Positions 4,776 through 38,150 of a stretch of DNA of 41,645 nt are shown here, piece after piece (within the stretch, counting starts at the first letter, position 1; each line of letters starts with the position of its first letter). The notes under the pieces are model-generated. The model saw only the letters and a list, made by a program, of their open reading frames with translations, was not told where the DNA came from and did not search any database. The stretch is from positions 1 to 41,645 of the IMG/VR virus record IMGVR_UViG_3300037961_002837; one strand, written 5' to 3'. The DNA is from a virus. The position numbers and the translations under genes were made by a program.

Positions 4776-5957
4776 TTAAGAGGTTCCAATATTGTCTAGT
4801 GACCCAGCGCCCTCAGTTTGTGCAATATCAGCTTTTAATTTAGCAGTTCTCATAGAAGTGTCTCTTCTAGCTTTAGCGTATTTTTCATCTTGCTGCGAAA
4901 CAAATCTAAAAAAATAATTAGATAATACAGACTGGCCTATATTAGGATCTTCTTGTATTGTTTTTAGAAGTTGTTGTTTATCATCTGGAGATATATTGTC
5001 GTACCAATTAGTTTCACCTTCATCAGGACTTATATTAAACTGTTTTAGTTGATCTGGAGTTAATAAATCTTGATATGTTAAATTATCTATCTCTTTAGAT
5101 ATATCATCTATAACTGTTCTACCAGTAGTTTCAAGCTTATCAGCAAATAAAGATTTATAGTCTTTGCTATTTAAGTTATTGTTTATTTGTCTTCTAATAT
5201 CTTGCTCATCAAAAAATCCTCCTTGTGCGGCGTTTTGCTGTACGGCTTTAGCTAACTTACCTATTGATAAATCAAACTCTGTAGCTTTAGGAATTAACAT
5301 GCCTTCTAATTCATCTCTAGTGCCTTCAAAAACATCAGGTGGTCCTACACCGCTTGCCGATGGTACTTCTATTCTATATATTTTTTTACCATCTTCACCT
5401 TGCGTTATTTGCGCTTCACCAGCATAAAATTTTTCAAGAAAACCTACCGCTCTTTGATCTGTAGCGCTACTAATTATAGACTTATTTTCGTTAGGATTCA
5501 TGCTAAAACCTTGTAAGTTTTTAGCGCTTGTTTTATCAAGGTTAGTTTGATTTTTTATTTCTGCAACATAAGCGTTAAACTCTCTTATTAAACCACTTCG
5601 CTCTTTCTCATCGGTGGAATTTAATATTTGTTCTCTAATACCCATGATCTTATCAAGACCAAAGTCATACTCGTTTTGATTAGATCCTACAGCTAAAAAT
5701 TCATCTAACTTTCCTTGTAGTTTACTTTCTAAAGCTTTTCTTTGTTCTTCTCTTTCTTGAGCTTCTTCTTCTTCTTTTAATCTTGCGTCTTCTACGAGCT
5801 TAGTGCCAGACTCTACAGCTATATCTCCTAACGCTGCGCCGAGACTAGTTTGTTTAAACTCGCCTACACCAGCCGCTGCTCGCGAAGCTCTATTAAGCCT
5901 GTCTAATTGACTAGAGTCTAAACCTAAATTTATACTAGGACTACTTTTTTTTGCCAT
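4776..5957 (-). CDS. Coiled-coil internal virion (ejection-type) protein
   Basis: 393 aa with no recognised family. Residues about 55-85 are a run of Glu, Lys, Arg and Gln that should form a coiled coil, and the rest is charged, soluble and helix-rich, with no signal peptide or membrane helix. It sits between the gp14-like membrane-active protein and the giant virion protein. In podovirus-like phages that position holds the internal core proteins that form the channel for DNA ejection. Assignment as a second ejection protein is by position and composition only. The spacing to both neighbours is about 11-12 bases, so the three are almost certainly co-transcribed. Confidence 0.8.
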   Translation of the reverse strand: MAKKSSPSINLGLDSSQLDRLNRASRAAAGVGEFKQTSLGAALGDIAVESGTKLVEDARLKEEEEAQEREEQRKALESKLQGKLDEFLAVGSNQNEYDFGLDKIMGIREQILNSTDEKERSGLIREFNAYVAEIKNQTNLDKTSAKNLQGFSMNPNENKSIISSATDQRAVGFLEKFYAGEAQITQGEDGKKIYRIEVPSASGVGPPDVFEGTRDELEGMLIPKATEFDLSIGKLAKAVQQNAAQGGFFDEQDIRRQINNNLNSKDYKSLFADKLETTGRTVIDDISKEIDNLTYQDLLTPDQLKQFNISPDEGETNWYDNISPDDKQQLLKTIQEDPNIGQSVLSNYFFRFVSQQDEKYAKARRDTSMRTAKLKADIAQTEGAGSLDNIGTS

Positions 5958-32824: not shown

Positions 32825-33840
32825 CGCTTTTTTCTAAATGACATTGTTCTTTTGTTAAGCATGTGATTTGGATTAGTATACTTAAGCTTGTTAGTTACTG
32901 TTGCCTCACCACCTTCTCTTTGCATTTCTTTATATCTATCAAAAGGATTACTTGGCGATCTCATAGACTCTACAACTCCTTTAGAGCCGCCTTTAAGTTC
33001 TCTATTACCATCGTCTTTATTTATTCTTTCCCAAGATTTTGCCGCGTTATGAAGTGGTCGATCTTGACCTTTAGGCTTATACATGTTCATCACCCATCTT
33101 TCAAACGGCATTCTATCTTCAGACGTTCTACCAAATGCATCTGGTTTAGCGATTGTTTTATTATACTCTTTTCTAGCTTTACGCATCCATTTTTCGTCTT
33201 GCAAAACATCTAAAACTGGATTATCTTTACTATACGATGTGTCATAAAAACTTTTAGCAGCTTCTGTAAGATTACCACCTGTTTCTGGATTTACGTTAAA
33301 AAGCTCCATTATATTTGTTGAGCCTATTTCAGGTTGGCTTGGTGCTGCTTCACTCGCAGCTTCTTTAGTAGCTTCGCTTGTTGTAAAAGCAGGGTCTGTT
33401 AGTTCAATTGGATTAGCAACTCCAGCTTCACCTGTAATGTTGTATTTTTGATCTACATAAAACTTACCACCTTTTCTGTATATATCTAAGTTTTTAGTAT
33501 CTTTTCCATACATATCTGACAACGCTCGCTTCTGAACGTCACTCATGTTTTCAAAATCAACTTGTTCTGAATCACCGTAAAATCTGTTAGACGCTTGCCT
33601 TCTCTCTATAATGTCAACTTGAGATTGGCCTAGATCTTTTTTCATTTCGTCTCTACTCGCATACTGAGTGTTCTGCGCGTACCAATCATCTGGAAGTACA
33701 ATTTCGGCAGGATCAAACTTTATGTGTTTGCTTCTTACATCGTCTTTGCTAATACTGTCATACTCGTCCATAGTTGTTTTAAGTGCTGTTGTGCGCTTTT
33801 TATACATAGACATTGACCTGTGTTTTAATCTCTTGCTCAT
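32821..33840 (-). CDS. First gene of the leftward cluster, unknown charged protein
   Basis: 339 aa with no recognised family. Both ends are basic (MSKRLKHRSMSMYKKRTTAL and MLNKRTMSFRKKR), and the middle is charged, polar and partly disordered, with an Ala/Ser/Glu linker around residues 155-170. No membrane or signal segment. The start at 33840 is the first leftward start beside the divergent region, so it is the leading gene of the late transcript. A DNA- or capsid-linked virion protein is plausible. Confidence 0.65.
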   Translation of the reverse strand: MSKRLKHRSMSMYKKRTTALKTTMDEYDSISKDDVRSKHIKFDPAEIVLPDDWYAQNTQYASRDEMKKDLGQSQVDIIERRQASNRFYGDSEQVDFENMSDVQKRALSDMYGKDTKNLDIYRKGGKFYVDQKYNITGEAGVANPIELTDPAFTTSEATKEAASEAAPSQPEIGSTNIMELFNVNPETGGNLTEAAKSFYDTSYSKDNPVLDVLQDEKWMRKARKEYNKTIAKPDAFGRTSEDRMPFERWVMNMYKPKGQDRPLHNAAKSWERINKDDGNRELKGGSKGVVESMRSPSNPFDRYKEMQREGGEATVTNKLKYTNPNHMLNKRTMSFRKKR

Positions 33841-34045: not shown

Positions 34046-34276
34046 ATGTCACAAGAAACATTAACTAAAAAAAGATTTGTAATTGCAAAGTCACTAATTG
34101 GAAAAAATGTATTAATAACTTTCACAAACAAAAAAGGTGAAACATATACTTATGATCATGATGCAGTGTATAGTGCAAATCAAGAAAAGTTTGAAACAAT
34201 GCAATGCTTTCAACAATATGGAAATTATACTAATAGTAACAATGTTCCAACATTTGGTCGCGAGTACACACTGTAA
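34046..34276 (+). CDS. Small early protein, paralogue 1
   Basis: 76 aa, first rightward gene. It shares its whole length with the 76 aa protein at 35562: KKRFV(I/V)(A/S)K, then TNKKG, then YDHD and NQEK, then CFQ(Q/K)YGNYTNSNN. The motif YDHDAVYSANQEK recurs. A small beta-rich basic protein with no family. Being first in the arm, behind promoter copy 1, suggests early expression. Confidence 0.75.
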   Translation: MSQETLTKKRFVIAKSLIGKNVLITFTNKKGETYTYDHDAVYSANQEKFETMQCFQQYGNYTNSNNVPTFGREYTL

Positions 34277-34284
34277 AAAGTGTG
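34267..34284 (+). other. Short hairpin over the stop of the first early gene
   Basis: CACACT (34267-34272) pairs with AGTGTG (34279-34284) over a GTAAAA loop that contains the stop codon. No T run follows, so it is unlikely to terminate. Confidence 0.35.
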
Positions 34285-34333
34285 ACACTTGCCACCTACT
34301 ATACTTTACTTAATAACCTAATGTCACAGTTTT

Positions 34334-34473: not shown

Positions 34474-34498
34474 AAATACTATACTTGTTAGATAATAT
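34474..34498 (+). promoter_or_regulatory. Promoter-like repeat, copy 2
   Basis: AAATAC (34474-34479), N11, GATAATAT (34491-34498), upstream of the ATG at 34524. The 5' leader after it (34491-34515) is nearly identical to that behind copy 4. Confidence 0.75.
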
Positions 34499-35561: not shown

Positions 35562-35792
35562 ATGTCAAATGTAGTAGAAAAAAAGAGATTTGTAGTCTCA
35601 AAAGGTATGGTAGGTAAAGAATTAGTAATTCAGTTTACTAACAAAAAAGGTGATGTCATCAAGTATGATCATGATGGTGTTTACGCTCTGAATCAAGAGA
35701 AATTAGAAACTATGGAGTGTTTCCAAAAGTATGGTAACTATACTAACTCCAACAATATTCCTACGTGGGCACGAGAGTGTCAAGTAGACTAG
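35562..35792 (+). CDS. Small early protein, paralogue 2
   Basis: 76 aa, homologous along its length to the 34046 gene (shared TNKKGD, YDHDGVYALNQEKLETM, YGNYTNSNN). The last residues (ARECQVD) diverge from paralogue 1, and exactly this 3' end is where a tRNA-like element begins. No promoter repeat lies just upstream, only A-rich leader. Confidence 0.7.
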   Translation: MSNVVEKKRFVVSKGMVGKELVIQFTNKKGDVIKYDHDGVYALNQEKLETMECFQKYGNYTNSNNIPTWARECQVD

Positions 35793-35831
35793 TGTAAATG
35801 GTTAATGGTGGTTCGATTCCACCTACACTCC
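35775..35831 (+). tRNA. tRNA-like element, apparently without a D-arm (loop reads GTA)
   Basis: A perfect T-arm GGTGG-TTCGATT-CCACC (35807-35823) is followed by TACACTC, which pairs six of seven with GAGTGTC at 35775-35781. Between them GACTA/TGGTT (35787-35791 and 35799-35803, two G-U pairs) closes a seven-base loop GTGTAAA with T33, anticodon GTA (35794-35796), A37 and A38. Only AAGTA (35782-35786) fills the place of the D-arm, and the variable region is AAT. The 5' part overlaps the end of the 76 aa gene. Alternatives: the 3' half of a tRNA left as an attachment site, or a decayed tRNA whose acceptor starts at 35790. Confidence 0.4.
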
Positions 35832-37345: not shown

Positions 37346-37561
37346 ATGAATAAATATTGTAAATGTGGTGAACTCGTACACCCAGTTAGACAAAAATACG
37401 GGTACAAAACATGTGTTAAATGTAGTAATGTAGAACGTGTCGCATCGGCACCTATTACTAATCATAAAACAGGTAACACAATACAAATAGTATCGCAAGC
37501 ACAATCAATAGCGATACATAAGGCAAGTCGCCGTAAAGGTTACGGTACATGTCTTAGATAA
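37346..37561 (+). CDS. Zinc-ribbon early protein
   Basis: 71 aa. Cysteines C5, C7, C23 and C26 (CKC ... CVKC) form a four-Cys zinc knuckle, followed by a segment NHKTGNTIQIVSQAQSIAIH and ASRRKGYGTCLR found in small zinc proteins of many phages. It is probably a nucleic acid-binding or protein-interaction module. It is the last coding gene before the structured RNA block, whose first bases follow its stop. Confidence 0.75.
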   Translation: MNKYCKCGELVHPVRQKYGYKTCVKCSNVERVASAPITNHKTGNTIQIVSQAQSIAIHKASRRKGYGTCLR

Positions 37562-37739
37562 AGAAACTAGTCAGGTTTAACAATAAGCGAAGCAGTAGAA
37601 GTATTGTGGGAGCCGAAGTGTAGGCGACAAGTCCTACCACCTGACGCCGGTATACGAGCGTGGCGCGTGAGACGTGTATGGGGGATAGAGCGATTTAGTG
37701 GACCTCAATCTTACTCACTTGGCCACCTCGTTTTCTAAC
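37562..37739 (+). ncRNA. GC-rich structured RNA block with a three-way junction
   Basis: No open frame fits here. P1 GTCAGGT (37570-37576) pairs with ACCTGAC (37639-37645). Inside lie ACAATA/TATTGT (37580-37585 with 37602-37607) and GTAGG/CCTAC (37620-37624 with 37633-37637), giving a 76-base three-way junction with 18 pairs. A second helix TATACG (37651-37656) with CGTGTA (37673-37678) follows, and GTGG/CCAC may close a third. In 37561-37813, 123 of 253 bases are G or C by hand count, far above the flanking genes. Such GC islands in AT-rich genomes usually mark structured RNA. I recognise no known class. Confidence 0.5.
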
Positions 37740-37813
37740 AAGCTAGGTATGGTACCTCGGCGTAAGCAAAGGTTAACTACTGACGAGTATGAGGTTCGAT
37801 TCCTCACTAGCTA
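37740..37813 (+). tRNA. tRNA-like element with abnormal anticodon arm
   Basis: AGCTAG (37741-37746) pairs with CTAGCT (37807-37812), and the T-arm TGAGG-TTCGATT-CCTCA (37790-37806) abuts it, as in tRNA. T48 and A49, A54, G59-G60 and A64 fit the conserved U8, A9, A14, G18-G19 and A21. The D-stem TGGT (37750-37753) with AGCA (37765-37768) has one mismatch. The anticodon stem holds only about three pairs (GTT with GAC), and the loop AACTACT (anticodon CTA, an amber reader) lacks the invariant T33. End-to-end length is about 74, normal for tRNA. Either a decayed tRNA or a non-decoding tRNA mimic. The first base pair is mismatched. Confidence 0.4.
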
Positions 37814-37832: not shown

Positions 37833-38150
37833 ATGAAGAATACTAATGAAATAGAAAAGCAATTACAGCGCAAAGCTGATGATTATTTAGAACAAAAAGC
37901 ACAAGAATTACAAAACATACTGCAAGAAGTTAGAGACTTTGCAGGTGTAAGAGCTAGTTTTTATGACTATATTGCAGATCTTAGCGAGTTTAAACATACT
38001 GACACGCCAAAAGCAGATAATGCTTGCAGGTATACAGAATTTAGTAACATGAAAGGTAAGTTTCACAGAGAGTTGAAACTTAACTTTAAAAATGCTTTAG
38101 TGGCTAAATACACAAAAGAATTAATAACTAAACTAGATATATTTGACTAA
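37833..38150 (+). CDS. Helical early protein, unknown
   Basis: 105 aa, mostly helical. The N-half is a Gln/Glu/Lys-rich coiled-coil-like helix (EKQLQRKADDYLEQKAQELQ), the C-half mixed and Lys-rich. It starts 19 bases after the tRNA-like element, with an A-rich leader. No family and no membrane segment. Confidence 0.65.
   Translation: MKNTNEIEKQLQRKADDYLEQKAQELQNILQEVRDFAGVRASFYDYIADLSEFKHTDTPKADNACRYTEFSNMKGKFHRELKLNFKNALVAKYTKELITKLDIFD

Follow-up and report, generated by a model that had tools for sequence, protein, structure and literature searches.

Genomic context of the noncoding block

The material is a 41.6-kb IMG/VR virus fragment (41,645 nucleotides), referred to here as the window (W in lists of loci). 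Structural genes occupy the minus strand up to position 33840, and small early genes follow on the plus strand from position 34046. The terminase, portal and GroEL genes match PHROGs families, and the terminase is 64% identical to that of the uncultured podovirus MW202828 and 31-44% identical to those of Flavobacterium elemo, Cellulophaga (phi19:3, phi40:1) and Tenacibaculum phages. Because of these identities, the host of this marine phage is probably one of the Flavobacteriia. A promoter-like motif (AAATACNA and GATAATA, separated by 8-12 bases) is repeated ahead of early genes, at 34491, 34942, 35212, 35859, 37316, 38803 and 40447 (seven copies on the plus strand and none on the minus strand, vs. 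0.24 in shuffles). A conserved inverted repeat, TGTGACA...TGTCACA, is located at 34281-34328, 3′ of a paralogue of the gene at ORF 35562, and this long hairpin was found again in many relatives.

Within the early arm, a noncoding block is flanked 5′ by a zinc-ribbon-like gene (Table 1) and 3′ by an ORF at 37833-38150. The zinc-ribbon-like protein showed 77-96% identity in a 14-way alignment; Pfam and PHROGs gave no match for it, and none was found in the isolated phages searched. An earlier note on this DNA had described positions 37562-37739 as free of genes and approximately 50% G+C, amid an otherwise AT-rich arm, and windows of 200 bases confirmed this, with a G+C content of 0.475-0.515 over 37500-37799 compared to approximately 0.20-0.39 across the bulk of the early arm, where no window exceeds 0.44. 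The longest open stretch in the block is 55 codons and the insertions and deletions of relatives are not multiples of three. We therefore rejected a protein-coding reading, as there is no long or conserved frame, and the frame-conserved protein that the earlier note had named as a possible refutation is absent from the block. The window had no Rfam match at the gathering score or at E values up to 10 and no ARAGORN call. A blastn search for distant matches in phages gave nothing beyond chance matches of 20-45 bases, and a limited search of the open-access literature found no published description of the cassette.

Table 1. Coordinates of the cassette and of related elements in the window.
Feature	Position	Strand	Remarks
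Zinc-ribbon-like gene	37346..37561	+	71 aa, CxC...CxxC; cassette anchor; RNA modules begin at its stop codon
Module A, three-way junction	37565..37650	+	11 homologues; RNAalifold; z -2.07
Module A helices	P1 37570-37576/37639-37645; P2 37592-37597/37602-37607, GAAG loop; P3 37620-37624/37633-37637	+	
Module B, long hairpin	37652..37734	+	Core in 28 viral contigs; arm permutation test; z -2.24
Module B helices	37654-37658/37727-37731; 1-nt bulge; 37660-37664/37722-37726; internal loop; 37667-37671/37714-37718	+	
Module B exchangeable arm P2	37679-37683/37703-37707	+	Inner arm; TTTT trails module B as a whole
Shared hairpin M4 (GGGGATAGAGCGATTTAGTGGACCTC)	37681..37706	+	In module B of W; inside tRNA-like element of L114
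Module C, tRNA-like, 72 nt	37741..37812	+	RNAfold fold matches arms exactly; discriminator A 37813, tail CTA
Shared hairpin M6 (GCGTAAGCAAAGG)	37760..37772	+	In C of W; in module B of L002
Minimal tRNA-like element, 39 nt	35791..35829	+	20 orthologues; RNAalifold de novo; model R1 57.6 bits

Structured modules within the block

The earlier note had proposed a comparison of fold energy with shuffled sequence. For the block as a whole this gave no signal, an outcome that the note had listed as refuting its claim, with RNAfold z-scores of -0.39 for 37562-37739 and -0.08 when the tRNA-like part was included, while the modules folded singly gave values around -2 (Table 1 for A and B; -1.44 for C and -1.95 for the minimal element at 35791). 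The folding energy of the whole block is misleading because the block consists of three modules. The first, module A, is the three-way junction of 7, 6 and 5 pairs that had been folded by eye (GTCAGGT/ACCTGAC, GCAGTA/TATTGT around GAAG, and GTAGG/CCTAC, respectively). RNAfold recovers the junction, and RNAalifold, run unaided on 11 homologues (W, L002, L006, L011, L015, L101, L103, L117, L123, L124 and L128), recovers the outer helix (P1) and the second helix (P2). Across these homologues, 99.3% of the cells in P1 and P2 are paired vs. 95.9% in shuffles, and slid controls gave at most 45% paired cells and no double changes. P2 carries compensatory changes, with GC/GU/CG/UA at one pair and UA/CG/UG at another. 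P1 is invariant and thus uninformative either way.

The further helix noticed beyond the junction turned out to be a complete, separate module, B, which is present in the window and in 28 viral contigs. It starts 1-227 nt past the zinc-ribbon stop codon in 27 of the 29 loci measured, the gene not having been found in the examined stretch for the other two. The frame of module B is nearly invariant, and so itself says little about selection. The arm between GTGT-N and N-TCTTA differs in almost every phage and still closes: over 25 arm variants, an arm's own ends form 4.48 of six possible pairs, compared to 2.36 when ends are swapped between phages, and none of 5000 permutations reached the observed value. 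The junction can also accommodate an optional second arm (L004, L008, L106, L110 and others).

Module C is tRNA-like. Its minimum-energy fold in RNAfold comprises a 6-bp acceptor (AGCTAG/CTAGCT), a middle arm (ACCT-CG-GC-GTAA-GC-AA-AGGT) in place of the D and anticodon arms, a 4-bp arm (TACT-GACG-AGTA) and a 5-bp T-arm (TGAGG-TTCGATT-CCTCA). Related elements occur in 11 viral contigs plus others. In relatives the acceptor changes to AACTAG/CTAGTT, both sides in step, and the GACG arm changes from TACT/AGTA to AACT/AGTT or TACC/GGTA. An apparent resemblance to a hammerhead ribozyme, prompted by CTGACGAG in module C and GATGAGTGATGGTAACGAAAC in L106, was rejected when Rfam gave no support, and the Rfam intron and ribozyme families likewise yielded no match for a self-splicing intron or a known ribozyme.

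The second tRNA-like element of the window, at 35791-35829, is smaller. It consists of an acceptor (AGTGTA/TACACT), a ten-base D-loop-like stretch containing GG (AATGGTTAAT) and a T-arm (GGTGG-TTCGATT-CCACC), with no anticodon or middle arm, and its 5′ end falls inside the stop codon (35790-35792) of the ORF at 35562-35792. Orthologues were chosen by homology of the upstream gene and by the T-loop motif, not by pairing. Of 103 homologues of the upstream gene, 38 are followed by the motif, compared to none in the reversed and reverse-complement controls; the other 65 downstream stretches have no such element. RNAalifold recovered the acceptor and the T-stem de novo from 20 sequences, in which 200 of 200 cells are paired and nine of the ten pairs are changed on both sides (82 double-changed cells vs. 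23.9 after shuffling). The covariance model R1 finds this element and 15 further places in 1.17 Mb, some of them outside its training set. Base-pair covariation in homologues, which the earlier note had asked to be examined, is seen in the second hairpin of module A and the arm of module B, and also in the 35791-35829 element.

Measured against canonical tRNAs (RF00005), both window elements have the TTCRANT T-loop, six acceptor pairs instead of seven (seven are found in many relatives) and no anticodon arm. The T-arm is stacked on the acceptor as in mascRNA-type elements, as indicated by the contiguous 3′ strand and by covariation.

Distribution and exchange of modules among relatives

More than 50 related loci were gathered by means of the neighboring gene, the zinc-ribbon gene and the B and C patterns. 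Module order and presence vary among at least 28 related phages: C occurs without A (L012), B without C (L003, L005, L007, L009), and B and C without A (L125, L249). Relatives also carry further hairpin modules, D (AATAAAG-WAGG...CCTACTTTATAAT type) and E (ACGTGTAGAACC...GGTTC). The locus L249 (JAAXIF010000025.1) is a 63-kb contig filed under a Sphingobacteriales MAG, and is a phage relative with D, B and C in that order. Because A, B and C are found in different subsets, we regard them as separable, and the comparison of loci suggests that the block is a cassette of structured modules that constitutes an undescribed kind of phage RNA. The idea that some 250 bases form one RNA with a tRNA-like terminus was not supported by this comparison, as A, B and C occur independently; the more general proposal of an undescribed structured phage RNA gained support from covariation and from the lack of an Rfam match. 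Close relatives, whose zinc-ribbon proteins are 93-96% identical, have different cassettes, indicating fast cassette turnover.

Arms are shared between scaffolds as well as between phages. Besides M6 (Table 1), this holds for the M4 hairpin, which belongs to module B in W, L006 and L123 and to a tRNA-like element in L114. M5 is found within B (L111), within outer hairpins of other kinds (L104, L199 and L201) and within a tRNA-like element (L187), and M8 is shared by D in L003 and a tRNA-like element in L105. M1 serves as the first B arm in L005 and L110 and as the second B arm in L114. One clade keeps the tRNA-like frame AGCGAGGTCAGGT...GACTGTTCTAGACATGAGAGGTTCGANTCCTCTCTCTCGCT unchanged around a middle of 0-70 nt of unrelated sequence. 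As far as comparative sequence analysis can establish it, A, B and the tRNA-like elements form genuine RNA structures selected for pairing, and their inner arms have been exchanged between scaffolds and phages.

All tRNA-like elements on our curated list are co-directional with the genes, and a scan of 13 records gave 24 tRNA or tRNA-like structures on the gene strand, a figure that includes real tRNAs and overlapping calls, vs. 0.8 per shuffled set. A true tRNA-Arg(UCU) occupies the slot in L010/L145 and several of L183-L194, replacing C in L010. The next start codon lies 2 nt past the discriminator in L122, L099, L173 and L176, and similarly 1-2 bases past the discriminator or acceptor end in L161, L169, L174, L178 and L181, and after the real tRNA-Arg of L183. 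This butt-joining would fit excision of the element, as an acceptor stem that stayed in place would crowd the start codon. A phage promoter behind each tRNA-like element was considered and rejected, as only 2 of 21 had one. In another clade (L161:1418, L169:4943, L174:4908, L178:4889 and L181:404), a tRNA-like element whose frame is constant and whose middle is hypervariable is directly 5′ of the zinc-ribbon start codon, and a co-varying hairpin with YGACGG in its loop lies 5′ of the element.

Several other elements were observed in further loci. The distant relative L197 has an 81-nt element (5537-5617) with an Rfam tmRNA score of 64 bits (E 1e-24), in which the whole mRNA/tag part is missing and G3-U70 is present; this tag-less domain is possibly a dominant-negative bait for trans-translation. 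G3-U70, the alanine identity element, is kept in the tRNA-like acceptors of L164:5219, L180:2835, L195 (downstream of 5240) and L197:5537, in which other acceptor pairs differ. A module common to L184:7106, L187:5219, L190:7133 and L191:5203 (CTCAGGGAGGAGAT) includes GGAGGAGAT, which has one mismatch vs. the Shine-Dalgarno stretch GGAGGTGAT, and the module might bind 16S rRNA. A normal-looking D-arm with long hairpins replacing the anticodon arm is seen in tRNA-like elements of MW202828, a complete podovirus genome (L206:523-629), and of the cultured Cellulophaga phage phi40:1 (L252:20679-20817, complement). In the Tenacibaculum phage Gundel_1, a 109-110-nt sequence at 68787-68896 (L255:29787-29896) that is annotated as tRNA-Tyr and is uncalled by ARAGORN resembles an expanded tRNA-like element.

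Possible functions of the cassette

We tentatively favor, as the leading interpretation though one short of an even bet, a noncoding RNA cassette within the early operon, in which the tRNA-like elements are cut like tRNA precursors and so separate structured RNAs from mRNAs, the arms being the working parts. Keeping an acceptor stem, a T-arm and an elbow, the elements would be recognized by host tRNA maturation enzymes, with RNase P acting 5′ and tRNA 3′ processing at the other side. The early transcript would thereby be cut between genes, and the adjoining noncoding RNAs freed or protected. RNase P measures the T-arm/acceptor stack from the elbow and cleaves other RNAs that present this stack (PMC4919913), and for this reason an element that retains only the T-arm/acceptor part is a plausible processing signal. 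The covariation of the 35791-35829 element, the B arm and the second hairpin of A, the gene-strand bias, the T-loop motif behind 38 of the 103 upstream-gene homologues, the exact fit between genes, the real tRNA-Arg(UCU) in the same slot in some relatives, and the identical hairpins across scaffolds (M4, M5, M6 and M8) all speak for this interpretation. Against it, the six acceptor pairs of C give an 11-bp stack rather than one of 12, the predicted RNase P cut at 35791 is inside the stop codon of the upstream gene, 65 of 103 stretches after the homologous gene have no element, and the TTTT tail of B also suits a plain terminator. Conserved frames combined with exchangeable arms suggest that the arms carry a selected function, perhaps in conflict with the host. 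More weakly, the interchangeable arms of A, B and C may be a functional payload, such as baits for host factors, and their turnover may be driven by an arms race. Our confidence in the structural claims, drawn from sequence comparison, is strong; in processing it is moderate, and the payload is speculative.

A competing explanation, which we rank somewhat lower and yet take seriously, is that these are purely cis-acting UTR elements: A and B would stabilize or terminate the zinc-ribbon mRNA at its 3′ end, and C and the minimal element would insulate or regulate the next gene, with no separate RNA and no target in trans. The first module always begins at the zinc-ribbon stop codon, all B copies listed end in CTCGTTTT, and the same place can be filled by unrelated hairpins that share this outer type (ACGAG...CTCGTTTT, AAAGWAGG...CCTACTTT). 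However, intrinsic terminators are G+C-rich hairpins followed by a U-run of approximately 6-8, and the run in B is only four T. Moreover, a terminator needs neither a conserved internal loop such as that of B (GUGAG-AYGUGU / UCUUA-CUCAC) nor nested arms of up to 120 nt, nor does it need the whole arms that B has in common with the tRNA-like elements.

Alternatively, the tRNA-like elements may be decoys that bind tRNA-binding host enzymes or tRNA-cutting defence nucleases, sparing the real tRNAs. They have lost the decoding arm but still have the elbow, the T-loop and the 3′ side, the alanine-type elements of L164, L180, L195 and L197 retain G3-U70, and the 64-bit tmRNA-type domain of L197 has no tag frame. 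However, most known tRNA-directed defence nucleases cut the anticodon loop, which is missing here, and each genome has one or two copies, every one wedged between two genes, which suggests a role in cis. We consider a decoy role improbable.

Far less credible is a single composite tmRNA-type RNA made of A, B and C and ending in a tRNA-like terminus. The modules are adjacent and co-directional, and the L197 element scores as tmRNA; against this, the window has no tag frame and no match to tmRNA or any other Rfam family at E up to 10, and relatives differ in their module subsets. The absence of a tmRNA signature reported by the earlier note was borne out, and the loose likeness to tmRNA that it drew fails for the window, although the distant relative L197 has a tmRNA-type domain without an mRNA part. 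Least tenable of all is an attP integration site or a decaying tRNA gene accompanied by hairpin clutter: real tRNAs hold the slot in some relatives and the attachment sites of phages are frequently copies of a tRNA 3′ end, but we rejected this since a search of 84,980 species genomes hit the 25-base T-arm/acceptor end only in one contig, a relative of this phage (L249), leaving no host tRNA with the 3′ half of C, and since decay would not yield nine of ten pairs double-changed, a covariation that refutes it.

Beyond the favored interpretation of a processed cassette, a broader and rather doubtful one is that of a mix-and-match RNA system, in which a few chassis (the anticodon-armless tRNA elbow, the bulged hairpin and the three-way junction) accept plug-in structured arms, so that RNAs for counter-defence or host takeover would evolve in a manner similar to protein domain shuffling. 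The exchange of arms at helix boundaries between scaffolds, accompanied by strong covariation, would provide a clear natural example of RNA evolving by modules in phages. The tRNA-like elements, 39-110 nt long and uncalled by ARAGORN or Rfam, would imply a gene class that phage annotation has missed, and a possible consequence is a tRNA-punctuation mode of cutting phage operons. Parts of this are open to bench experiments, as an isolated phage, Cellulophaga phi40:1, has related candidate elements.

Comparison with known systems

The closest parallels in placement are mascRNA/menRNA and other tRNA-like elements cut by RNase P (RF01684), as well as mitochondrial tRNA punctuation, in which a small acceptor and T-arm element with no decoding role lies between transcripts in the position of a processing signal. 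In contrast to mascRNA and menRNA, the elements described here belong to a DNA phage, lie between early genes and have hypervariable middle arms; their processing is inferred, and the Rfam models miss the window. The tRNA-like domain of tmRNA (RF00023) also lacks an anticodon arm, the alignment of the L197 element (64 bits) spans the whole tRNA-like part, and G3-U70 is conserved in several relatives, whereas the window elements have no tag frame, pseudoknots, G3-U70 or tmRNA match.

GOLLD and ROOL are ornate noncoding RNAs of phages and prophages that are found near tRNA islands (PMC12286853). Like the present modules, they are phage-borne, have no assigned function, neighbor tRNA or tRNA-like genes and combine a conserved with a variable part (PMC12286853). 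However, our modules are much shorter (80-200 nt) and have swappable arms on several scaffolds, and the Rfam covariance models of GOLLD and ROOL gave no match in the window. Species 1 and 2 of phage T4 are small stable RNAs made together with tRNAs; likened here by description only, they too are small phage RNAs with no assigned function, and to our knowledge no module exchange is known for them. Finally, armless or truncated mitochondrial tRNAs have lost arms, kept the elbow and still decode. The elements of the cassette likewise keep the elbow, whereas in their case it is the anticodon arm itself that has been lost.
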